Source: a candidate division WS1 bacterium (GTDB lineage: Bacteria > Armatimonadota > Zipacnadia > Zipacnadales > Zipacnadaceae). Taken from it: 39,740 nt of DNA. The DNA lies in assembly GCA_012523355.1 (NCBI GenBank), contig JAAYIR010000138.1, positions 1 through 39,740 on the forward strand. The letters run 5' to 3'. Position 1 is the first letter of the stretch; every line of letters begins with the position of its first letter. Position numbers and translations under genes: made by a program. The notes below the pieces were generated by a model. The model did no database searches and was not told where the DNA came from. It worked only from the letters and a program-made list of their open reading frames with translations. This document shows, piece by piece, positions 7,671-20,494 of this stretch.

Positions 7671-7837
7671 GGCAGAGCAAGCAGCTACACGCAACCATGG
7701 TTGGGGGAGGAAACTATGGACACTCACCTCGACCCTTACCGTATGGCACGCTGCTCTGGAGAGGCCGATTGCCGAGCATGAGTCGCAGGCAGAGGTCTCC
7801 TCGACGGCCAACCAACGTAAGGAGGGTAATACACCCT

Positions 7838-9700
7838 ATGTCTAAAACGTTACTAGCCGTATGTCTTACACTAGCGCTGGCAGCTATTACGCTGCCCGCC
7901 CTGGCCGCTTCCAACCCGGCCGAGACGGTGCCTTTCGATCACTGGGCCTATGACGCAGTGCAGAAGCTCGTGGATCGCGGCATCATCATCGGCTACCCCG
8001 ATGGCACTTTCCGGGGTAATCGGGCCATGACGCGGTACGAGTTCGCCATGGCGATCAGCCGCATGCTGGACGCTCTGGCTCGCGATCCGAACATGCGCGG
8101 ACCCCAGGGTCCCGCTGGTCCTGCCGGTCCTGCTGGCCCGGCTGGTCCGGCCGGCCCGGCGGGTGCCGCCGGTGGTGCTGCTGGTCCCGCCGGCCCTCAG
8201 GGCCCGGCTGGTCCGGCTGGCCCCGCAGGTCCCGCGGGCACGGTGAAGCCCGAAGAGGTCCAGGCCATCTGCCAGAAGCTGCTTGACGAGTTCAAGAACG
8301 AGCTCAAGGACCTCAAGAGCGACGTCAACTATCTCCAGGAAGACGTATTGTTCCTGGGCGATCGTGTCACCGCGCTGGAGCAGCAGTCCGGTCCCAAGGT
8401 CACTGGTTGGGTCAACTACCGGATGGGCTTTGCCAGCAGCCTGTATGACATGGACGGCGGCGACTTCGACCTCTACAGCGGCGATCCCTATATGCCGGAG
8501 CTCACCGACCACCGGAACGACTTCGACAACATGACCGCCAAGGTCGGCGCCATGGGCAAGATCACTGATGATCTCAGCGCCCGCGTCGTCCTCAAAGTGC
8601 GGGACAGCGATCCGGCTCCCGTAGCGCTGGGCGTCTTCAGTTCCGTGGACGCCGTGGCGCCGGACCAGTACACCCCGTACTACTACTCGGAAGTGATTGA
8701 TGTTGATACTCACTGGGGCGAGGAGCTCTGGTTGGACGAGGCTTTGCTCGACTTCAACTTCAGTGCCTTGTCTAACTCCCGGGTGGTCCTGGGGCGTCAG
8801 TTCCAGTCCTACGGGCTGGGCGCGCTGGTTAACAACGCGCGTCAGTCCCAGCAGGGTCTTCGCCTGGCTTGGAGCAACATCCTCAAGACCAACCTCGACT
8901 TCGAGGGCTTCGTGGGTGGCTCCGACTACGACTTCGGAGACAGCTGCTGGCTTCAGAATGAGGGCGATGGCTACATCAGCGCGCGCTTGGGCTATGCTCA
9001 GCCGAGCTGGAGTGTCGCCGGTAACTGGCTGGTCGATGGTGTCGGCAGCGAGCGCGGCTGGGGCCTCGATGCTTGGGCCCGCTTCTGGGGCGGCCGGGAG
9101 CTGCAGGTTTCGTTCGGTCGGCTCACCCAGTCCATCCAGGGCATCGAATACGACAGCCCGTTGCAGCCGCACAGCGAGCCCATCGGTATCATGGGTATGG
9201 TGGACGTCTGGAAGGGCAACAACTGGGCCCTCCAGGGCTACTACTCCCAGGCTGATGCCGAGTACAATCCTTGGTACTCCAGCGTGAATCCGTACTTCGA
9301 GGCGTACAACCGCTTCGATACGGGTCTGGGCTGGGTCCAGTGGGGCCGCTGGCTCGACAATCCGCTGGTCATCCCGAACGTGCGGGCGATCGGTGGCAGC
9401 CTCGGCTTCCAGTTGTTGAATGCCGACTGGAAGGTCTGCTACTACAACCTCGACAACATGAGCGACAACTGGGCCAACACCATGTGGTACGAACTCCAGC
9501 CTTCGGGCGTGCCCTACAATCAACTGTGGGCGCTGCGCATGAAGAAGGAGATCGCCAATGGTGTCAGCCTGAACCTGACCTATGCCCAGCAGGTTGTTGA
9601 CGAAGACGTCTATGTCTTTGGCAACCCGAGCTGGACCATGGGTTCCGCAGACTTCGACAACGCCCAGCTGCTGATGGCGGGCGTCGCGGTTGGCTTCTAA
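7838..9700 (+). CDS. SLH-domain outer-membrane porin with collagen-like linker
   Basis: The product is a 620-aa envelope protein expected to tether the outer membrane to the cell wall and act as a porin. Domains in order: signal peptide (1-23, ending PALA); one SLH domain (about 28-82, with FDHWAYDAVQKLVDRGIIIG and YPDGTF); collagen-like Gly-X-Y repeats (about 87-134, nine triplets, a one-residue phase break, then six triplets, mostly GPA/GPQ); a heptad coiled coil (about 137-187); and an aromatic-rich beta-barrel (about 190-620) ending in Phe, as outer-membrane proteins do. The frame is open further upstream, but ATG 7838 begins a clean signal peptide and follows AAGGAGGGT (7819-7827). The gene has its own promoter, leader and terminator, as expected for an abundant protein. 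The collagen-like segment is the unusual part. Confidence 0.9.
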   Translation: MSKTLLAVCLTLALAAITLPALAASNPAETVPFDHWAYDAVQKLVDRGIIIGYPDGTFRGNRAMTRYEFAMAISRMLDALARDPNMRGPQGPAGPAGPAGPAGPAGPAGAAGGAAGPAGPQGPAGPAGPAGPAGTVKPEEVQAICQKLLDEFKNELKDLKSDVNYLQEDVLFLGDRVTALEQQSGPKVTGWVNYRMGFASSLYDMDGGDFDLYSGDPYMPELTDHRNDFDNMTAKVGAMGKITDDLSARVVLKVRDSDPAPVALGVFSSVDAVAPDQYTPYYYSEVIDVDTHWGEELWLDEALLDFNFSALSNSRVVLGRQFQSYGLGALVNNARQSQQGLRLAWSNILKTNLDFEGFVGGSDYDFGDSCWLQNEGDGYISARLGYAQPSWSVAGNWLVDGVGSERGWGLDAWARFWGGRELQVSFGRLTQSIQGIEYDSPLQPHSEPIGIMGMVDVWKGNNWALQGYYSQADAEYNPWYSSVNPYFEAYNRFDTGLGWVQWGRWLDNPLVIPNVRAIGGSLGFQLLNADWKVCYYNLDNMSDNWANTMWYELQPSGVPYNQLWALRMKKEIANGVSLNLTYAQQVVDEDVYVFGNPSWTMGSADFDNAQLLMAGVAVGF

Positions 9701-10379: not shown

Positions 10380-10636
10380 GAGTACAGGAATCTTACGCAC
10401 TGGCACTAGAGCTTGTCAACCGCAGCGGCGTGGACCGGGCACGCTGCTCGGATAGACCAACAGCGACGTGGGCAGATATGGCGATGAGGCTTTTTTTTGG
10501 TAGGAAGGAAGGGCGGGGGCAAAGAGGGAAATGTAGCACACCGGAGCGGTGATCGCTTGCTGGCGAGAGTAGCCAGGGCAAAGCTCTGGTCAGGTGGTGG
10601 GTGCGCAACGCAGCAGGACTGTGGGTGACGATAAGT

Positions 10637-11431
10637 ATGATGGACGTAAAACGACTCGCAGAGATTTCAGGAGGCGGGGGCCGGCGCGCGGTGCAGGTAC
10701 AAGCTCAGATCAGCTTGCCGTGGTCGGAGGCAGTCCGCATCAGTATCAAGAACGTTATCCTCCGGCTGGGGCGCGCCGCGATCACCGGCACGGGGATCGT
10801 CCTGGGCATCGCCTTTCTCACCTATGTCTGGTCGGACGCGGTCTTCAGCGATGGCGTCAAGCGCGCCGCACTGGAGCAAGAACGCATCCTGGCCGCGGCC
10901 ACTGAGTCAGTGAAGGGGTCAGCAGTTGAGGGGCAGGAATCGGGGGCCTCCGCTGCGGAGGAGGCTCAGGAAACCAAGGCCAAGCTGTCCCTGCAGCAAC
11001 AAGAGGCCGCCGCCGAAGAGGAGCGCGGTGCTCGCCGCGCCTGGCTGGTGGTCATGGCCTTGCTGGTCTGTGGTATCGGGATCACCAACTCCATGCTCAT
11101 GTCCGTCACCGAGCGCTTTCAGGAGATCGGCACCATGAAGTGCCTGGGCGCGCTGGATACTTTTGTGGTGCGTCTGTTCCTGATCGAGGCCGCGGTCATT
11201 GGCTGTCTGGGTTCGTTCGTGGGATTGGTGATTGGGTTCCTGTTCGTGATGTTCTTCTACTCAATCAAGGCGGGGTTCTCGGTCATGGCGAAGGTGTCCT
11301 GGCCCCAACTCCTGCTGTACATGCTGCTGGCGCTGCTCATCGGCGCAGCGTTGAGTCTGATCTCGGCCATTCCGCCCGCAGTTCGCGCCTCGCGCATGCC
11401 GCCGGCGGCGGCGCTGCGCACCGAGATCTGA
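10637..11431 (+). CDS. Short FtsX/MacB-type ABC transporter permease with coiled-coil ectodomain
   Basis: This 264-aa inner-membrane protein has the four-helix core of the MacB/LolCE/FtsX permease family. TM1 (ITGTGIVLGIAFLTYVW) follows a typical ISIKNVILRLGRAAIT entry. The usual large periplasmic MacB domain is replaced by a charged helical stretch of about 75 residues rich in Glu, Gln, Ala and Lys, a likely coiled coil. TM2 then begins AWLVVMALLVCGIGITNSMLMSV, followed by ERFQEIGTMKCLGAL, the cytoplasmic coupling region, and TM3-TM4. It ends SRMPPAAALRTEI, a standard family ending. The start is uncertain: ATG 10637 and ATG 10640 are both possible and the Shine-Dalgarno is weak. It should pair with the ATPase at 11573 and probably with the giant permease at 12564 as a hetero-dimeric mechanotransmission-type transporter. 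Confidence 0.85.
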   Translation: MMDVKRLAEISGGGGRRAVQVQAQISLPWSEAVRISIKNVILRLGRAAITGTGIVLGIAFLTYVWSDAVFSDGVKRAALEQERILAAATESVKGSAVEGQESGASAAEEAQETKAKLSLQQQEAAAEEERGARRAWLVVMALLVCGIGITNSMLMSVTERFQEIGTMKCLGALDTFVVRLFLIEAAVIGCLGSFVGLVIGFLFVMFFYSIKAGFSVMAKVSWPQLLLYMLLALLIGAALSLISAIPPAVRASRMPPAAALRTEI

Positions 11432-11572: not shown

Positions 11573-12472
11573 ATGGCTAAATACGTATGTCCCCGGTGTG
11601 GAGAGAGCGTGGAGACCAGCGGGATCGTGACCGTCTGTCCCTCCTGCCACGCCGACCTGCGTGGCGTGGTGGCGGAGGAGCAGCACGCCCGCACCCGACG
11701 GGCAGCGGCGGAGCTGCTGCGCGACGACTCGGTGACCACGCACGAGTACATCGTCCGCACACGGGGATTGACCAGGATCTATCGCATGGGGGATGTCGAG
11801 GTGTCCGCGCTCAACGGCGTGGACCTGGACATCCGCCGGGGCGAGTATCTGTCAATCATGGGGCCCTCGGGGTCGGGCAAGTCCACCTTCTTCAACATGA
11901 TCGGCGGACTGGACAAGCCCACCGCCGGAAGCTGTTACATCAACGAGACCGACATGGCGCAGCTCTCGGCGCATGAGTTGGCCTGGCAGCGTTGCCATAC
12001 CATCGGATACATCTTTCAGACCTTTAACCTCATCCCGGTGATGACCGCGCTGGAGAACGTGACGCTGCCCATGATCTTTGCGGGCGCGACCAGCGACGAG
12101 ATGTTGGAGCGCGGGCGCTTGCTGCTGGAGCTCGTGGGTCTCGAGGGGCGGTTGCATCACAAGCCCAGTGAGCTCTCCGGCGGACAGCAGCAGCGGGTGG
12201 CAGTCGCGCGCGCGCTGGCCAACCAACCCGCCATCATTCTGGCTGACGAGCCGACCGGTAACCTGGACTTGCATACCGGTAAGGAGATCATCGACCTGCT
12301 CAAGGAGCTGAACGTGGAGAGCGGAGTGACCATCATCTCTGCTACCCACGATCTGAAGATGATTGACGTCTCCGACCGCATCGTGCATATCCGTGACGGC
12401 AAGATCGAGCGTATCGAACGCCGTGAGGATATCGAGCTGGAGGTCGGGACCCTGGGCGGGGAGCAGCAGTAA
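11573..12472 (+). CDS. LolD/MacB-type ABC transporter ATPase with N-terminal zinc ribbon
   Basis: This 299-aa protein powers the flanking permeases. The N-terminus holds a zinc ribbon, YVCPRCGES...VTVCPSCHADLRG (residues 4-29), not normal in LolD/MacB ATPases. A linker of about 30 residues leads to the ATPase domain (about 60-290). This has Walker A GPSGSGKST, a Q-loop region (GYIFQTFNLIP), the signature LSGGQQQRVAVARAL, Walker B IILADEPTGNLD and the switch His in ISATHD. ATG 11573 is preceded by AAGGAG with 8 bases spacing. The gene sits between a short and a giant permease gene on the same strand. The zinc ribbon could regulate ATPase activity, bind another protein or sense metal; that is inference. 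Confidence 0.93.
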   Translation: MAKYVCPRCGESVETSGIVTVCPSCHADLRGVVAEEQHARTRRAAAELLRDDSVTTHEYIVRTRGLTRIYRMGDVEVSALNGVDLDIRRGEYLSIMGPSGSGKSTFFNMIGGLDKPTAGSCYINETDMAQLSAHELAWQRCHTIGYIFQTFNLIPVMTALENVTLPMIFAGATSDEMLERGRLLLELVGLEGRLHHKPSELSGGQQQRVAVARALANQPAIILADEPTGNLDLHTGKEIIDLLKELNVESGVTIISATHDLKMIDVSDRIVHIRDGKIERIERREDIELEVGTLGGEQQ

Positions 12473-12563: not shown

Positions 12564-15500
12564 ATGAGATCACGCATGGTGCGGCCGGGCCTAGTTCTAA
12601 TCAGCATTATTTTGGGGACGACCTGTACCTGGTTCCCTGCCATCCCCCAGGAGGAGATGGAGGTCCAGTTGACCTCCGACACCGACTATGCCCGGGTGGC
12701 GGCGCAGATCTCCGCGCCACAGTTGAGTGAGACCGTTCGCGAGTTCGCGGCCCTGGGCAGTCGCGTGACCGGATATCCGGGCTGCGAGCAGGCGGCGGCG
12801 CTGGTGGAGCAGAAGTTCCGGGAGCTAGGACTGAAGGACATAACGGTGGACGAGTTCCCCGTGATGTCCCCCGTCACGCCTCCCGGCCAACCTCCCGCTA
12901 CCCTGGCGGTGGGCGACCAGGTGCACACCATCTACCCTCTGTGGCCCAACTTGGTGCGCACGCCTCAGACCCCGCCGGAGGGGCTCAGTGGTCCCCTGAT
13001 CTACGCCGGCGATGGACATCTCTCGGCGTTTAACGGCGCCAACCCCGTCGGCAGCCTGGTGCTGATGGACTTCAACTGCCAGTCCCAGTGGCTGAATGCC
13101 CCGGTGCTGGGGGCCCGCGCCGTGCTGTTCGCGGAGCCGGAGAACACGGTCCGTGGCGAGGCTGAGCAGAAGTTCCTGTCCATTCCCGCCGACATCCCGC
13201 GCTATTGGGTGCCGCGAGCCTTGGCCGACAGCCTGCGCGGAAGGCTCAAGGTCCAGGGCTCGATGCAGGCCACCGTGCACTGCAGGATGCGCTGGCAGGA
13301 GGTCACGGGCAAGAACATTACCGGAGTGATCGAGGGCACCGACCCGCAACTCAAGAACCAGCGCATCGTCATCGAGGCCTACTACGACTCCATGTCCATC
13401 GTGCCGGGCCTGGCGCCGGGAGCGGAGTCGGCAACCTCTATCGCCAGCCTGCTCCAGATCATCAAGGCCTTTCAGGCCCATCCCCCCAAGCGCACGGTGG
13501 TGTTCCTGGCCAGCGGCGCGCACTTTGAGGGGCTGACGGGGGCCAAACACTATATTTGGCAGCGTGTTCGGGGCGCTCGGGCCGACGGGTACGTCAAGTA
13601 CTGTTTCAATGTCGCGCGCGAGTCCCGGCAGAACATCGCGGATCTCACCAACCGGTTGTGGATGGAGAAGAAGACTGGGGGTCATGAGCCGCCCACCCTT
13701 GCGGAGCAGATACGTGGTCTTGGCCACCTCCTGGACCGCGTGCGCAGCGCAGCCTCCGATGCGGGCCGGATCGAGCGCAAGACCCGCCGAGGTCTGGCCG
13801 TCAATGACCCGAACGCTGGCCGGCTGCTGGTCTACCAGCTACCCCCGGAGGAGTTGGAGAGGCGCAAGGCACTCCTGGAGCTCTTTGCCGAGCGCGTGCC
13901 AACCATCCGCCAGGCCGCCGAGCAGGCTGAGCAGGCCATCCGCCAGGCTCAGCAGCTGAGCAGCGCCAGTGAGGAGGAGCAGCGGCGGGGCCTGGACCAG
14001 GTGCGGGAGACCGTGTATGCCCTCACACAGGCCCTGGATGTCTCCCCCGACGACATCACTGCATGGATGTCAGTGGACCTCTCCAGCCACAATCAGGCCT
14101 TTGGCATCTTCTACAAGGGCTACTTCTACGCAACCAACGAAGGCCAGCAGTGGAAGTTCTCCGACCTGGGCAAGAAGGCGCGGGAGTACGCCGTCCTCGT
14201 GGGCAACGCCCTCTCGGTGGATCCTGCACAACGTTTCGCCGATGGCATTAACGCCCTGCAGGGAAAGAGCTGGCAGGCCTACATGTCCGGCAAGCTGGCC
14301 CTGGCCAGTGAGGTGGCGACCCTGGCGGGAATCCCGGGGCTGAGTTTCGCCACTCTGAACGATAGCCGGCCATACGTGGACACTCCGCTCGACGTTCCCG
14401 AGCACATGAACGTGGATAACGTGGTGGAGCAGGTCCGGTTCCTAAGCTGTCTGCTCAGCGATATGGTCTCGGTCAACGACCCGCCGGACCTCTACAACGT
14501 GTCCCTCAACGACTACTTCGTGGAGGCCCGGGGACGACTGGTGCAGTTCAATCCCGCCAGAAGCACCTTCCCGGATGAGCCGGTGGTGGGCGGCCTCGCC
14601 ACTATCCGCTCGACCGAGAAGACCAACATGGGCGTGCGGACGGAGTTCTTCGACGAAACCGATGAAAACGGGCTCTTCAACCTCATCGGCGTGCCCAACG
14701 TGGGCTGTCTGGAGGTCCCCTCCACCCGGACGCTGGTCGAGGGCTTCCGCTGCAATGTCCTGGACGGCTCCATCGAAATGGCTCCCGACCAGGGGGTGAA
14801 CGGCGCCAAGGCGTATCCTATCGAGGTGCCGATGGACCTGGCGCTCAAGCCCACGACGGTGGTCATGTTTAACTGCAAACCCATGACCATCTTCGAGACG
14901 ATTGACAAACGCTTCTTTGACCCGCTGCAGCAGATCTACATCTACGATGCGGGCCTGGAAGCCGAGCCCTATGCCTATGGCTACGATCTGCCCAAGCCCT
15001 CCCGGAAGATGGAAAGCACCTACGAGCCGGTCTCGGTCGTGTACGCTGCGCCGGGAACCCGCCTGCGTGTCACCATGGCGGCCAGCCTGCTGGGCCTGCG
15101 CTTCCTACTGGTCAATCCCACCGAGGAGAAGCCGGAGGGCGTCGGCTATCTGGTGGATGAGACTCCCGCCATTCATTTCAGTCCCTACCTGGTAGCTCGC
15201 GACATGTGGAGGCTTGACGAGGACCGCACGGAAGCGCTGCGGCGCTATGGGATCACTAACAATCTGGTAGATGAGGCCCACGGTGCGGCCAAGGAACAAC
15301 TGGACCTGGCCCAAGAGAGCCTCAACGCGCAGCGGTATGATGACTTCATTACTGCTGCCCGTGCGGCGTGGTCCTTGGAGTCCCGCGCCTATCCAGCCGT
15401 GCGCTCCACTGCCAATGACGTGATCAAGGGGATCATCTTCTACCTGGCGCTGCTCCTGCCTTTCAGCTTCTTCCTGGAGCGCCTGTTGATCGGGCATCCG

Positions 15501-17516
15501 GACCTCAAGTGGCAGCTCTTCAGCACGGGCGGCATCTTCCTCGTGGTCTTTGTTATTCTGAACCTGGTGCACCCTGCCTTCGCCCTGGTTTACGCTCCGA
15601 TCGTGATCCTGCTGGCCTTCATTATCCTCGCTCTGGGCATGCTGGTCATCAGCATCATCGTGAACAAGTTAGAGGAGGAGATGAAGACAGTTCGCTATGA
15701 ACAGACGGGCGTGCACTCTGCCGACGTGGGCCGGTTGGGAGCTTCGGCAGCCGCCTTCAGTCTGGGCGTCTCTAACATGCGGCGGCGCCAGGTGCGGACG
15801 CTGCTCACCTGTCTGACGCTCATCCTGCTAACCTTCACTGTCATGTCCTTCACCTCGGTGGTGGAAAGCGTTCGCGCCAACAAGATCCTGGTGCCGCGCA
15901 TTGCCCCCTACAACGGGGTGTTGGTGCGCGACAAGACCTGGCTGCCGATGGGCGAGCTGGCCTACAGCCAGATGCAGACCGAGTATGGCAACCAATACAG
16001 TGTGGCGGGTCGCGCCTGGTACTTCTCAAGTGATGTGGGTAAGCAGTCGTTTGTGAATCTCACGCGCGGGCTCAAGAACTACGCGGCCACCAGCATGATG
16101 GGGATGATGCCCTCGGAGGCCGACGTCAGCCGCCCGCAGGAGTATCTGGCGGAGGGCAGCCGCTGGTTCCGCGAAGGGGATCGCAATGTTATCATTCTGC
16201 CCGAGGGTGTGGCCTCTGCCCTGGGGGTTACCAGTGAGGAGATCGGACTGGCCACGGTCAATCTGTTCGGCAATGAGATGCGGGTCATCGGCATTCTCTC
16301 CACCTCACGCTACAAGAGCGTGCAAGACCTCGACGGCGAGGTCTACACGCCGGTGGACTTCCTGCTGATGCAGCAGCAGATGGCAGGCGGGGCGATGGAG
16401 GAAGGTCGCAGCCGCACTACCCGGGGCGGAGAGATGCAGTACATCCACGTGGTGCCTGACAGTGCGGTGATCGTTCCCTACCAGTTCGTCATGGACCACA
16501 ACGGCAGCCTGCGCTCAGTGGCGATCGCCACGCCCGAGGGCACCAGCGCCATGGGAGTCCTGGACTCCCTTATCACTCGCATCGAGCTCAACCTCTACGC
16601 CGGCGTGGACGGCAAGACCTACCTGTGCAGCGCCGTGGGCGCCACCAGCTTCGGTGGGATGGCAGACCTGGTCATCCCCATCCTGATCGCCGCGGCCATC
16701 GTCCTGAACACGATGCTGGGCTCGGTCTACGAACGCGTCAAGGAGATCTACATCTACAGCTCCCTGGGCCTGGCGCCCAACCACGTGGCTGCCCTGTTCA
16801 TCGCCGAGGCCAGCGTCTACGCGGTGTTGGGGGCTATCGCCGGCTATCTGGTGGGGCAGACGGCGGCCAAGATCGTGACCAGCCTGCAGTTGAGTGCGGG
16901 ACTCAACCTCAACTACTCCTCGCTCTCGGCGGTGATCACTACGGTAGTCATCATGGCCACCGTGCTGCTCTCGGTAATGTACCCGGCGCGGCGGGCCTCG
17001 GATATCGCCATGCCCGGTATTGAGCGACGCTGGTCCTTGCCCGAACCGGAGGGTGATCTGCTCAGCATGGACCTGCCCTTCACGGTTACCGGGGACCAGG
17101 CGCTGGGCGTGAACATGTACCTGCGGGAGTTCTTCACCGCGCACACCGACTACTCGCTGGGGCAGTTCTCCACCGGGGAGATAACCATGTCCTATCAAGA
17201 CTACGAGAACGGCCAGGGCTACGAGCTATCCGCGATGATCTGGCTGGCTCCGTATGACCTGGGAGTGTCTGAGCGCCTGACCATCCAGACCGTACCCACG
17301 GAGGACCCGGAGATCTTTCGCATCCAGTGCAACATCCTGCGCACCAGTGGCGATGATGCCTCCTGGAAGCGGGTCACGCGCAACTTCATCAACATCATTC
17401 GCAAGCAGTATCTGCTGTGGCGCACCTTCCCGGCGGCTCAGAAGAGCGAGTACGGCCAACAGGCGGCGGCGTTGCTGAACGGTCAGCCAGAGGCGCAGGC
17501 CTCCAAACCGGCCTAG
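12564..17516 (+). CDS. Giant FtsX-type ABC permease with M28 aminopeptidase-like, probably inactive, ectodomain
   Basis: This is a 1650-aa membrane protein. Regions in order: an N-terminal signal/TM segment (about 8-28); an M28-peptidase-like domain from about 55 with a PA-like insert (about 140-195); a helical Glu/Gln/Arg-rich insert (about 415-490); an Ig-like or carboxypeptidase-regulatory-like segment (about 650-710, DENGLFNLIGVP); membrane helices at about 955-1035; then an FtsX core (NMRRRQVRTLLT near 1070, TM about 1079-1100, an ectodomain, three TMs between about 1366 and 1480, PARRAS). A cytoplasmic C-terminal domain of about 160 residues follows. Expected M28 metal and catalytic positions look replaced: AHYDS reads AYYDS (Tyr273), GADD reads GAES (Glu288), the EE pair reads HF (320-321), and the late His is Val605. 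It therefore probably binds rather than cleaves peptides. ATG 12564 gives the signal segment; the Shine-Dalgarno is weak. Confidence 0.85.
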   Translation: MRSRMVRPGLVLISIILGTTCTWFPAIPQEEMEVQLTSDTDYARVAAQISAPQLSETVREFAALGSRVTGYPGCEQAAALVEQKFRELGLKDITVDEFPVMSPVTPPGQPPATLAVGDQVHTIYPLWPNLVRTPQTPPEGLSGPLIYAGDGHLSAFNGANPVGSLVLMDFNCQSQWLNAPVLGARAVLFAEPENTVRGEAEQKFLSIPADIPRYWVPRALADSLRGRLKVQGSMQATVHCRMRWQEVTGKNITGVIEGTDPQLKNQRIVIEAYYDSMSIVPGLAPGAESATSIASLLQIIKAFQAHPPKRTVVFLASGAHFEGLTGAKHYIWQRVRGARADGYVKYCFNVARESRQNIADLTNRLWMEKKTGGHEPPTLAEQIRGLGHLLDRVRSAASDAGRIERKTRRGLAVNDPNAGRLLVYQLPPEELERRKALLELFAERVPTIRQAAEQAEQAIRQAQQLSSASEEEQRRGLDQVRETVYALTQALDVSPDDITAWMSVDLSSHNQAFGIFYKGYFYATNEGQQWKFSDLGKKAREYAVLVGNALSVDPAQRFADGINALQGKSWQAYMSGKLALASEVATLAGIPGLSFATLNDSRPYVDTPLDVPEHMNVDNVVEQVRFLSCLLSDMVSVNDPPDLYNVSLNDYFVEARGRLVQFNPARSTFPDEPVVGGLATIRSTEKTNMGVRTEFFDETDENGLFNLIGVPNVGCLEVPSTRTLVEGFRCNVLDGSIEMAPDQGVNGAKAYPIEVPMDLALKPTTVVMFNCKPMTIFETIDKRFFDPLQQIYIYDAGLEAEPYAYGYDLPKPSRKMESTYEPVSVVYAAPGTRLRVTMAASLLGLRFLLVNPTEEKPEGVGYLVDETPAIHFSPYLVARDMWRLDEDRTEALRRYGITNNLVDEAHGAAKEQLDLAQESLNAQRYDDFITAARAAWSLESRAYPAVRSTANDVIKGIIFYLALLLPFSFFLERLLIGHPDLKWQLFSTGGIFLVVFVILNLVHPAFALVYAPIVILLAFIILALGMLVISIIVNKLEEEMKTVRYEQTGVHSADVGRLGASAAAFSLGVSNMRRRQVRTLLTCLTLILLTFTVMSFTSVVESVRANKILVPRIAPYNGVLVRDKTWLPMGELAYSQMQTEYGNQYSVAGRAWYFSSDVGKQSFVNLTRGLKNYAATSMMGMMPSEADVSRPQEYLAEGSRWFREGDRNVIILPEGVASALGVTSEEIGLATVNLFGNEMRVIGILSTSRYKSVQDLDGEVYTPVDFLLMQQQMAGGAMEEGRSRTTRGGEMQYIHVVPDSAVIVPYQFVMDHNGSLRSVAIATPEGTSAMGVLDSLITRIELNLYAGVDGKTYLCSAVGATSFGGMADLVIPILIAAAIVLNTMLGSVYERVKEIYIYSSLGLAPNHVAALFIAEASVYAVLGAIAGYLVGQTAAKIVTSLQLSAGLNLNYSSLSAVITTVVIMATVLLSVMYPARRASDIAMPGIERRWSLPEPEGDLLSMDLPFTVTGDQALGVNMYLREFFTAHTDYSLGQFSTGEITMSYQDYENGQGYELSAMIWLAPYDLGVSERLTIQTVPTEDPEIFRIQCNILRTSGDDASWKRVTRNFINIIRKQYLLWRTFPAAQKSEYGQQAAALLNGQPEAQASKPA

Positions 17517-17626: not shown

Positions 17627-19618
17627 ATGGCATATCACGACAAGGAACTAGACCTATACCGTAGTCTGATGGATCGGCCGGAAACCTACACCGACGGGTT
17701 TGATGGGCGGTCCATTGCGGGGGCACTGTTCGTCGGCTTCGTAATGATGCCCGGCGCCATCTACCTCAGCCTGGTCGCCGGTCTTACGCTGGGGCCGGCG
17801 GCGGAGTGGACGACGATCATCCTGTTTGTGGAGATCGCGCGTCGTTCCTTCGTGCGGCTCAACCGTGCCCAGATCTATATCCTGTACTACATCGCCTCCT
17901 GTCTGACCGCCATGATTGGCGGCCAGATGCTCTCCGGCGGAGTCTTCGCGCAGGCTATCTGGAATCAGTACTTTGTCCGCTCGCAGGCCGCCAAGAATCT
18001 GGGGATCGCCGACAAGATTCCTAGCTGGGTTGTCCCCCCGGAGAACTCGCCCGCTCTTATCAATCGCACCTTTTGGAGCGAGGAATGGATCTTACCGGGT
18101 CTGCTGCTGGTGTTGGGTACGGTCCTCAGCCGGCTGAACTGGTTTGGGATGGGTTACTTGCTGTTCCGTGAGACCTCCGACTACGAGCAGTTGCCCTATC
18201 CGTTTGCCACCGTCACCGCGCAGGGAGCCACGGCGCTGGCCGAGGTGGGGAGCAAGGAGGAGTCGTGGCGCTGGCGGATCTTCAGCATCGGCGCCATGAT
18301 CGGGATCATCTTCGGCGCCATCTATATCGGCATCCCTACCATCACCAGCGTCATCATGACGCAGCCGTTTCAGCTCATCCCCATCCCCTGGGTGGATCTC
18401 ACCCGGACCACCGAGTCCTTGCTGCCGGCGGTGCCGCTGGGTTTCATGACCGACCTGGGCACCATCATCTCCGGCTTCGTGGTTCCGTACTGGGCGGTCA
18501 TCGGCAGCGCCCTGGCGGTGGTGATCATGATGTTCGTCAACCCCAGCCTGCAGCGAGCCAACGTGCTGCGCTCCTGGACGCCGGGGATGGACACGATTTC
18601 CACCCAGTTTGCGAACCAGATAGACCTGTACCTGAGCCTGAGCATCGGCGCCACCCTGGCCATCTTCCTGATTGGGCTCTATGAGGTAGTGGCCAACTAC
18701 CGGGCGGCGGTGGCCGCTCGGCGCGCCGGCAAGCCAGAGGAGCGCTCCTGGGCCCCGCCCGTGGGTCGTGGCGACTTTCCCTTGTGGGTGGCGGGGGCCA
18801 TGTTCGTGGTTTCCACTCTGGGGTACATCTGGCTCTGCAAGTGGCTCGTGCCTGGCTTCCCGGCGTGGATCGTGGCCGTGTTCGGCTTTATTGCCACGCC
18901 GCTCAACTCCTATGTCAATGCCCGTATGATCGGGCTGACCGGTCAGTACGTAAGTCTCCCGATGCTCAAAAACGCTGTGATTATCTTCAGCGGCTACAAG
19001 GGCGTAGACATCTGGTTTGCGCCTATTCCCGACTTCAATCACGGTAACCAGGCGCAGAACTTCCGCATCCTGGAGCTGACCGGCAACAAGATCATGAGCA
19101 TCGTGAAGGCTGAGTTGATCGTCTGGCCGATCACCATCTTCTGCAGCCTGCTCTTTTGGCAGTTCATCTGGCGCCTGGGGCCCATCCCCTCGGCGGCGTA
19201 TCCCTACGCCCTGAAGATGTGGAACCTGGTGGCGCTCCAGCAGGGCATCTGGTTCACGGCTTCGCTCAACCCGGAGCAAAGTCTGTTCATGAAGGCCTGG
19301 AGCTGGAACTACGCACTCTGGGGTTTGCTCGGGTCTGTCGCGGTCTACCTGCTGCTGCGGGGCTTCCGGCTGCCGATCTTGTTGATCTATGGTCTGATCC
19401 GCAGCGCCACGGGTGGAATCCTACCGCACGCCGTTTTCCCGCAGCTCTTGGGTGCGCTGGTCAGCGAGTATTACTTCATCCCGCGCTATGGCGCCCGCCG
19501 CTGGAAGCAGTACGCCATGGTGCTGTTCGCCGGCTATTCCTGCGGCACCGGGTTGGTGGGGATGGTGACCGTTGCCCTGGTGCTCATCGGAAAATCCGTC
19601 TCGCAAATGCCGTACTAG
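17627..19618 (+). CDS. OPT-family (oligopeptide/metal-chelate) transporter
   Basis: This 663-aa polytopic membrane protein has about 14-16 hydrophobic segments. After a soluble N-terminus, the first membrane region reads MPGAIYLSLVAGLTLGPAAEWTTIILFVEIARR. Together with the conserved EQLPYPFATVTAQGATAL cytosolic segment and the overall length, this matches the oligopeptide transporter (OPT/YSL) family, proton-coupled importers of peptides, siderophores or metal chelates. The call rests on remembered family patterns and is fairly secure. GGAGGATCC lies directly before ATG 17627. It is 110 bases downstream of the giant permease gene on the same strand, with a palindromic repeat pair between. If the permease ectodomain binds peptides, the two could handle related substrates; that link is speculative. 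Confidence 0.8.
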   Translation: MAYHDKELDLYRSLMDRPETYTDGFDGRSIAGALFVGFVMMPGAIYLSLVAGLTLGPAAEWTTIILFVEIARRSFVRLNRAQIYILYYIASCLTAMIGGQMLSGGVFAQAIWNQYFVRSQAAKNLGIADKIPSWVVPPENSPALINRTFWSEEWILPGLLLVLGTVLSRLNWFGMGYLLFRETSDYEQLPYPFATVTAQGATALAEVGSKEESWRWRIFSIGAMIGIIFGAIYIGIPTITSVIMTQPFQLIPIPWVDLTRTTESLLPAVPLGFMTDLGTIISGFVVPYWAVIGSALAVVIMMFVNPSLQRANVLRSWTPGMDTISTQFANQIDLYLSLSIGATLAIFLIGLYEVVANYRAAVAARRAGKPEERSWAPPVGRGDFPLWVAGAMFVVSTLGYIWLCKWLVPGFPAWIVAVFGFIATPLNSYVNARMIGLTGQYVSLPMLKNAVIIFSGYKGVDIWFAPIPDFNHGNQAQNFRILELTGNKIMSIVKAELIVWPITIFCSLLFWQFIWRLGPIPSAAYPYALKMWNLVALQQGIWFTASLNPEQSLFMKAWSWNYALWGLLGSVAVYLLLRGFRLPILLIYGLIRSATGGILPHAVFPQLLGALVSEYYFIPRYGARRWKQYAMVLFAGYSCGTGLVGMVTVALVLIGKSVSQMPY

Positions 19619-19729
19619 ACATCGCCTGAACCCCCAGAGACCGGCGCCGGAGTGCCGAGGTGGGTGGCGCGCGGGGTTACCTGCGGGCTAGGAGGGGTAT
19701 ACATAAGGGAGGGGAGGAAGGAGAAGCGG

Positions 19730-20494
19730 ATGATACGATCAATGCGCCGGCCTTCAGGCTTTACAGTCCTTGAGCTCCTGGTCGCTATCGGCATCATTGT
19801 GGTGCTGTCGGCCATCCTGCTTCCGGTGCTGGCGGCCGCCCGCAACAACGCCCGTAAGGTGGAGTGCATAAGCCACTTGCACAACATCGGACGCGCCATG
19901 GGCCTGTACATCTCCGACCACTATGGCTACTTCCCGCCGTGGTGCTCCACCCACCCGGACCCCAACGCCGCTCCCACGCCCAAGAACGCCCCGGACCCCG
20001 CCATCCGGACCTGGGACATGTGCATGAGCGACTACCTCGAGAAGTGGGAGGAGGTCATGCGCTGCCCCAACAACCCGCTTCCCCAGGCCGTGATGGGGCC
20101 GGGGTCCAGCCGCGAGTTGGCCCGTGCCTACGCCCTGGCGCGACAGACACAGCGTCCGCGGGGCGTGAATTTCTACGGCGGCTACAAAGCGTTGATCCCC
20201 AACCCCTCCGAGACCGTGATGATCTTTGAGAAGGGGGCCAATCTGCCTGGCTCCTGGGGGGACGCGCTGGGCGAGAATGTTTACCAGAGCCACAACAGCA
20301 AGGGCCAGCCTGGCTACTCGGAGCTGCCCTTCCACAGTGGTGGGAAGAACATTCTCTATGTGGACGGGAACGTGAAGTGGCACGTGGCAGACACCGGCCC
20401 CTTCGCTTGGGACCCCAAGGGGGATGGCAGCCGCAAGGGCGCCTGCGAGCTCTGGGGAGTGGCCCCCACCGGAGACTGGCCCCCGCTGCGCTAG
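19730..20494 (+). CDS. Type II secretion-like pseudopilin with H-X9-DG motif
   Basis: This 254-aa protein begins with a short basic leader and the prepilin peptidase site SGFTVLELLVAIGIIVVLS, where cleavage after Gly and N-methylation of Phe are expected. The hydrophobic N-terminal helix is followed by a globular domain. The motif HSGGKNILYVDG near the C-terminus is an exact H-X9-DG, diagnostic of the large pseudopilin-like family (DUF1559 relatives) that is expanded in Planctomycetes and Armatimonadota. AAGGAG ends 6 bases before ATG 19730, which also places the leader correctly; the frame is open upstream but without a start signal. It probably forms or decorates a pilus-like or secretion structure. 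The GspE/PilB-type ATPase at 39214 is of the matching machinery, but distant. Confidence 0.88.
   Translation: MIRSMRRPSGFTVLELLVAIGIIVVLSAILLPVLAAARNNARKVECISHLHNIGRAMGLYISDHYGYFPPWCSTHPDPNAAPTPKNAPDPAIRTWDMCMSDYLEKWEEVMRCPNNPLPQAVMGPGSSRELARAYALARQTQRPRGVNFYGGYKALIPNPSETVMIFEKGANLPGSWGDALGENVYQSHNSKGQPGYSELPFHSGGKNILYVDGNVKWHVADTGPFAWDPKGDGSRKGACELWGVAPTGDWPPLR

Follow-up and report, generated by a model that had tools for sequence, protein, structure and literature searches.

An unusual question of function is raised by a giant gene in the window, the 39,740-nucleotide stretch of DNA analysed here: is the M28 aminopeptidase-like domain that heads its product, in which the catalytic residues are altered, an enzyme in decay, or does it serve a different purpose? 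Pseudo-peptidases are usually recognised through decay. The window's nearest named relatives belong to Candidatus Zipacnadia/candidate division WS1 of Armatimonadota; the class Zipacnadia is described elsewhere (PMC10290634).

Architecture of the giant protein

From N- to C-terminus, the protein consists of a signal peptide, an M28/PA-like ectodomain, three transmembrane (TM) helices, a MacB/FtsX-type permease and a C-terminal domain, with Pfam matches to Peptidase_M28 (2.2e-10), MacB_PCD (1.9e-6) and FtsX (1.9e-13). Its main parts are located as follows.

12564..17516, + strand: giant protein, 1650 aa, open ORF, numbered from the ATG at 12564
12663..14480, + strand: M28-like ectodomain, residues ~34-639, including a PA-type insert at ~105-245 (AF2, Foldseek, HMMER)
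13620..14048, + strand: helical/coiled-coil insert of ~140 aa, residues ~353-495 (AF2 secondary structure)
15420..15656, + strand: three TM helices joining ectodomain and permease core, residues 953-1031 (hydrophobicity)
15798..17000, + strand: permease core, residues 1079-1479, comprising FtsX TM1, the MacB_PCD periplasmic domain and FtsX TM2-4 (Pfam, HMMER)

Hydrophobic segments were located at residues 9-27, 953-971, 981-999, 1013-1031, 1082-1100, 1363-1381, 1408-1426 and 1454-1472, the first of which resembles a signal peptide in its hydrophobicity, and their topology would place the M28-like head outside the cytoplasm and the C-terminus on the cytoplasmic side. The C-terminal ~170 residues past the last TM helix (window 17003-17516) are conserved among relatives and probably cytoplasmic. 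The stretch between the M28-like domain and the TM helices (window 14541-15764) has no Pfam match, and a carboxypeptidase-regulatory-like beta-sandwich motif was judged by eye at residues ~655-720. Sequencing error and a pseudogene were both rejected for the giant gene, because the ORF is open and its pocket residue set is common to more than 100 proteins.

The AlphaFold2 (AF2) model of residues 34-700, based on an alignment of 58 homologues, reached a pLDDT of 93.2 and a pTM of 0.92, and Foldseek comparison of the ectodomain with the PDB returned AAP-S 2ek8 (5.7e-19), BSAP 6hc6/6hc7, TfR1, PaAP and GCPII. Profile HMMER likewise matched AAP-S 2ek8 (1.4e-21), with TfR1 and nicalin also among the profile matches. 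The M28 alpha/beta fold and PA-type insert proposed in the initial annotation are thus confirmed by Pfam, AF2, HMMER and Foldseek, and chance similarity is ruled out by the Pfam match, the model and the Foldseek results. The span first given for the domain, 13100-14460, is indeed M28-like, but begins too late, the start lying nearer residue 34 (12663).

AAP-S (from Aneurinibacillus) and BSAP/YwaD (6hc6, from B. subtilis), both M28 aminopeptidases with a PA domain, share with the head the fold, the PA insert, the PGA loop, GIPG and the DTPxD strands (HTPxD there), whereas in the giant protein H97, E152, H256 and the catalytic E151 have become Y, F, D and H, and a coiled-coil insert and the permease fusion have been added. 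This insert sits between D505 and the other pocket motifs and differs or is missing in other clades, distant relatives being gapped at 330-490. TfR1, nicalin and nicastrin are M28-fold proteins generally known as non-peptidases, and resemble the head in having this fold without an intact di-zinc site; they differ in being eukaryotic, in the residues replaced and in having no ABC permease.

The permease and its gene cluster

About 1,000 further residues of the same protein form an ABC permease, which the initial annotation did not mention. Both Pfam matches exceed their cut-offs (FtsX 51 vs 25.5 bits, MacB_PCD 28.7 vs 27 bits), the four-TM core has helices starting at 1082, 1363, 1408 and 1454, the first and second of them flanking MacB_PCD, and HMMER matches this core to LolC/LolF/MacB/YtrF structures. 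The gene is third in a four-gene cluster, in the order small FtsX permease, LolD-like ATPase, giant gene and OPT/YSL-fold transporter.

10601..11431, + strand: small FtsX-type permease of 276 aa that lacks a large periplasmic domain (Pfam FtsX 2e-18; synteny)
11573..12472, + strand: LolD/MacB-type ATPase with an N-terminal CxxC..CxxC zinc-ribbon-like segment (NCBIfam LolD, sequence, synteny)
17627..19618, + strand: polytopic OPT/YSL-fold protein, 663 aa (AF2, Foldseek, synteny)

The gene adjoining the giant gene provides a MacB/LolD-type ATPase (2e-69 against NCBIfam LolD) with Walker A, signature and Walker B motifs intact by eye, and the small FtsX permease is the likely heterodimer partner of the giant protein. 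Curated cut-offs for the LolCDE exporter are not reached by LolC (23.1 vs 473 bits), lolCE (17.4 vs 362.45) or LolD (233.3 vs 307.75). The giant protein is best explained as the large permease subunit of a previously undescribed Type VII (MacB/LolCDE/FtsEX-like) ABC system of Armatimonadota. LolCDE, MacB and YbbAP-TesA resemble it in the permease core and LolD-like ATPase, LolCE also in being a heteromeric permease and YbbAP in pairing with a hydrolase, but they have neither an M28 head nor an OPT partner, and the window's subunits fall below the curated Lol/MacB cut-offs. A review of MacB that covers heteromeric and fused permeases contains no occurrence of the word 'peptidase' (PMC5985334), and a literature search on M28-FtsX fusions, DUF6785 and Armatimonadota ABC/FtsX found no papers.

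The AF2 model of the 663-residue neighbour (pLDDT 79, pTM 0.81) has entries of barley YS1 as its only significant PDB matches in Foldseek (5e-9 and 9e-9, TM 0.59-0.69); the likeness to OPT/YSL lies in the predicted fold, with an identity of 13-15%. Pfam OPT is matched by one of 16 members, an orthologue (5.8e-7), the window's own protein being below the cut-off, and searching the PDB with a profile of the OPT-like alignment gave no match. In 53 of 57 loci (the window's type and its phylum-wide counterparts) the OPT-like gene lies downstream of the giant gene in the same orientation. Of the 24 close loci having enough upstream sequence, 21 contain the genes for the small FtsX permease and the ATPase. 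It is this gene order that points to a link between the giant protein and the OPT transporter. Elsewhere in the window, a DUF1559-type pilin-like protein is encoded downstream (19652-20494), often but not always syntenic, and an SLH-domain porin-like protein encoded at 7697-9700 contains a stretch of collagen-like Gly-Pro-Ala repeats.

The altered pocket and its conservation

Relatives were gathered from 61 same-phylum genomes, from a genome-collection scan (best 80 of 220) and from a phylum-wide search of 291 genomes, 266 of which gave a match at E<=1e-8, many of those in family f21 scoring like ordinary M28. A set of 117 representatives below 80% identity, with 503 comparable columns, was used to evaluate conservation. 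In the numbering from ATG 12564, the altered motifs read A272-Y273-Y274-D275-S276, P285-G286-A287-E288-S289, H320-F321 and V605, exactly as the initial annotation had them (AYYDS with Tyr273, GAES with Glu288, HF at 320-321, Val605). The pocket positions, with counts among the representatives, are as follows.

13380..13388, + strand: Y273-Y274-D275, Y273 (107 of 117) standing for a metal-ligand His, D275 being the second-shell Asp (117 of 117)
13425..13427, + strand: E288 in place of the bridging Asp (E 104, D 11, S 2)
13521..13526, + strand: H320-F321 where the catalytic Glu and a metal-ligand Glu stand (H320 117 of 117, F321 99)
14076..14078, + strand: D505, retained M28 metal ligand (117 of 117)
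14361..14393, + strand: D600-x-R602-x3-D606-T607-x2-D610, with D606 opposite the sixth-ligand His (D 110, N 6, E 1)

In AAP numbering, H97 corresponds to Y273, D99 is kept (D275), D117 corresponds to E288, E151 to H320, E152 to F321 and H256 to D606. The five M28 metal ligands (H, bridging D, E, D, H) are thus faced by Y273, E288, F321, D505 and D606, and the EE pair, a catalytic Glu beside a ligand Glu, by H320-F321. E288, a conservative D-to-E change, pairs with the bridging Asp across a one-residue deletion in the alignment, and D505, in MSVDLSSHN, which the initial annotation did not list, would from motif and order be the ligand Asp D179 of AAP, according to our reading. For the last ligand, the HMMER alignment to 2ek8 and 6hc6 sets PWYHTPNDT of AAP-S opposite PYVDTPLDV, making D606 the equivalent of the His; this position is altered, as had been claimed, although the Val605 then chosen is one residue off. 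The further claim of loss at every visible position, correct for H97, E152, H256 and E151, is too strong, because D505 alone among the five metal-ligand positions is canonical and the bridging position is acidic in 115 of 117 representatives (E288 here), giving carboxylates at three of the five. H320, E288, D505 and D606 could bind metal.

These substitutions are strictly maintained. H320 ranks first in conservation of all 503 columns; D600, R602, T607 and D610 are conserved at ~99-100%; conservation in the pocket columns exceeds that of the remaining domain (Mann-Whitney p 3e-5), and a level of at least 90% is reached by five of the seven pocket columns against 60 of all 503 columns (hypergeometric p 4e-4). 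A search of the aligned homologues for ligand-retaining members yielded the AHYDS His in just two of 117, both without the other ligands, and the complete ligand set in none of the 117. Recent decay in a single lineage is ruled out by conservation over the 117 representatives. In related genomes, eleven M28 proteins that are not fused still have AHxD, GADD/GADN and EE where aligned, their C-terminal ligand strands being unaligned and unscored, and in a tree built after masking the pocket columns the fused proteins form one clade against unfused M28 (SH-aLRT 92, with gappy outgroup rows). Given this strict conservation, the alignable motifs kept by unfused M28 proteins and the single fused clade, the substitutions most likely arose once, before the family radiated, and then froze. 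What the sequences show in the pocket is not simple loss: a new set of residues, just as strict, has taken over in the head of an ABC permease.

Paralogues and distribution

Paralogue B is ~40% identical and has the same pocket. None of its 22 loci carries the OPT-like gene, and in 16 of 22 a polytopic DUF6785/DUF6784 gene lies nearby; two such proteins (L124:5704-7797, L165:5796-7823) are encoded directly upstream of B-type giants, and are possibly the transporter partner of this paralogue. That the OPT-like protein is homologous to DUF6785 is not claimed, the hhalign result being weak (probability 17.8%, E 0.0014). A third, divergent giant paralogue is found in both other genomes of the window's genus (L072:1774-6294, - strand; L073:2306-7381, + strand). 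Its pocket motif is lost (STYDA, AGVV), and in L073, where the operon is seen whole, it is accompanied by separate copies of the OPT-like, FtsX and ATPase genes; since it keeps this operon with a decayed pocket, the pocket is not indispensable in every copy.

Restriction to Armatimonadota was ruled out by sporadic members in at least two other phyla. In two such phyla, represented by L159 and L169 (genomes outside the 291), the family occurs in 4 of 45 and 3 of 7 genomes, suggesting transfer or deeper ancestry. Most of these relatives keep D275, H320, D505, D600, R602, D606 and D610 where aligned; Y273, E288 and F321 vary, E288 being T in two relatives of another phylum.

Possible functions of the head

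A non-peptidase role of the head is well supported by sequence comparison, since no relative has either zinc ligand set unbroken, a His (H320) stands for the catalytic Glu in all 117 representatives and the unfused M28 proteins keep their alignable motifs. This portion of the binding or sensor role initially suggested holds up, binding or sensing itself being the best guess. On balance, and with modest confidence, we favour a head acting as the non-aminopeptidase ligand-binding part of a Type VII ABC machine working for the OPT transporter. Type VII ABC systems pass ATP-driven motion to periplasmic domains; by analogy with FtsEX-EnvC and YbbAP-TesA, and from the conserved former catalytic cavity, we infer that the head binds a ligand and that the ATPase moves or reads this head. 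The di-zinc pocket of an M28/PA aminopeptidase ancestor would have been rewired once, before family radiation and with presumed loss of hydrolysis, into a pocket consisting of Y273, D275, E288, H320, D505, D600, R602, D606, T607 and D610. There the head would bind its ligand, most likely a peptide or amino-acid-like chelate, as suggested by its M28 ancestry and conserved OPT/YSL neighbour. The LolD-like ATPase would hydrolyse ATP on a permease heterodimer made up of the small FtsX protein and the large subunit, and mechanotransmission would induce a conformational change of the head, which may then hand over, release or sense the ligand for its OPT partner, with a putative direction and coupling. 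Several points weigh against this reading: E288, D505, D606 and H320 may yet form a metal site, which would allow catalysis; the tie to the OPT protein comes from gene order; the third paralogue has a decayed pocket in a kept operon; and the B paralogues lie away from the OPT-like gene.

It is unlikely, though worth weighing, that the head is instead a metal enzyme, in which H320, D505, D606 and E288 hold one metal (1-His/3-carboxylate), H320 or a Tyr acts as general base, and a permease-presented substrate is processed, as by TesA for YbbAP. These four residues stand where ligands or the catalytic residue used to be and show the conservation of an active site, at about 90-100%, the core D275/H320/D505/D600/R602/D606/D610 is kept by most relatives in the two further phyla, and YbbAP, a Type VII ABC system, works with the periplasmic hydrolase TesA (PMC12646458). 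Yet neither canonical zinc site is intact (H97 to Y, E152 to F, H256 to D), the Glu that served as general base is gone, and neither E288 (T in two relatives of another phylum) nor D606 (N in 6 of 117) is invariant. A bolder conjecture, to which we likewise assign a low probability, is that the M28 pocket was rebuilt as a single-metal or metal-chelate site (H320, D505, D606 and E288, with R602 and D610) for non-peptidase chemistry or capture of a metal chelate or peptide, driven by the Type VII ABC system and feeding the OPT/YSL transporter; if true, this would be a binding-protein-in-permease, dual-motor import system with no described counterpart.

A pseudo-peptidase head that switches on an envelope enzyme by contact upon ATP hydrolysis, similarly to FtsEX-EnvC, is more doubtful still. 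FtsEX drives the LytM (M23) domain of EnvC, in which catalytic residues are missing (PMC7668044); both systems couple a Type VII ABC permease to a dead-looking peptidase fold, and EnvC has a coiled coil, as does the giant protein's own clade in its insert. EnvC, with its M23/LytM fold, is made as a protein of its own, and the M28 head is part of the permease chain. Against the activator reading, the coiled coil is missing from distant relatives, the interior of the former catalytic pocket is highly conserved, and the conserved neighbour is a transporter, not an enzyme. Least probable is a pure structural scaffold, its fold kept for dimerisation or spacing as in the transferrin receptor and its pocket ligand-free, for although TfR1 is among the closest folds and one divergent paralogue without the pocket motif retains the operon, a scaffold would allow drift, and the pocket columns surpass the domain average with H320 first of 503.

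Implications

To our knowledge there is almost no experimental biology of Armatimonadota, and an automatic 'M28 peptidase' label on such proteins would mislead inventories of protein degradation in this phylum. The catalytic set of the giant protein appears to have been swapped once for an equally invariant set, not decayed, and the resulting M28-like head resides inside an ABC permease, kept across most of the phylum, beside an OPT-fold transporter. Because a strictly conserved, replaced pocket goes together with a conserved four-gene cluster, the head probably serves a transport machine not described before, as its binding or sensing component, and is not an enzyme in decay. The Type VII ABC superfamily would thereby gain a new kind of periplasmic head, one in which a few residues are testable.
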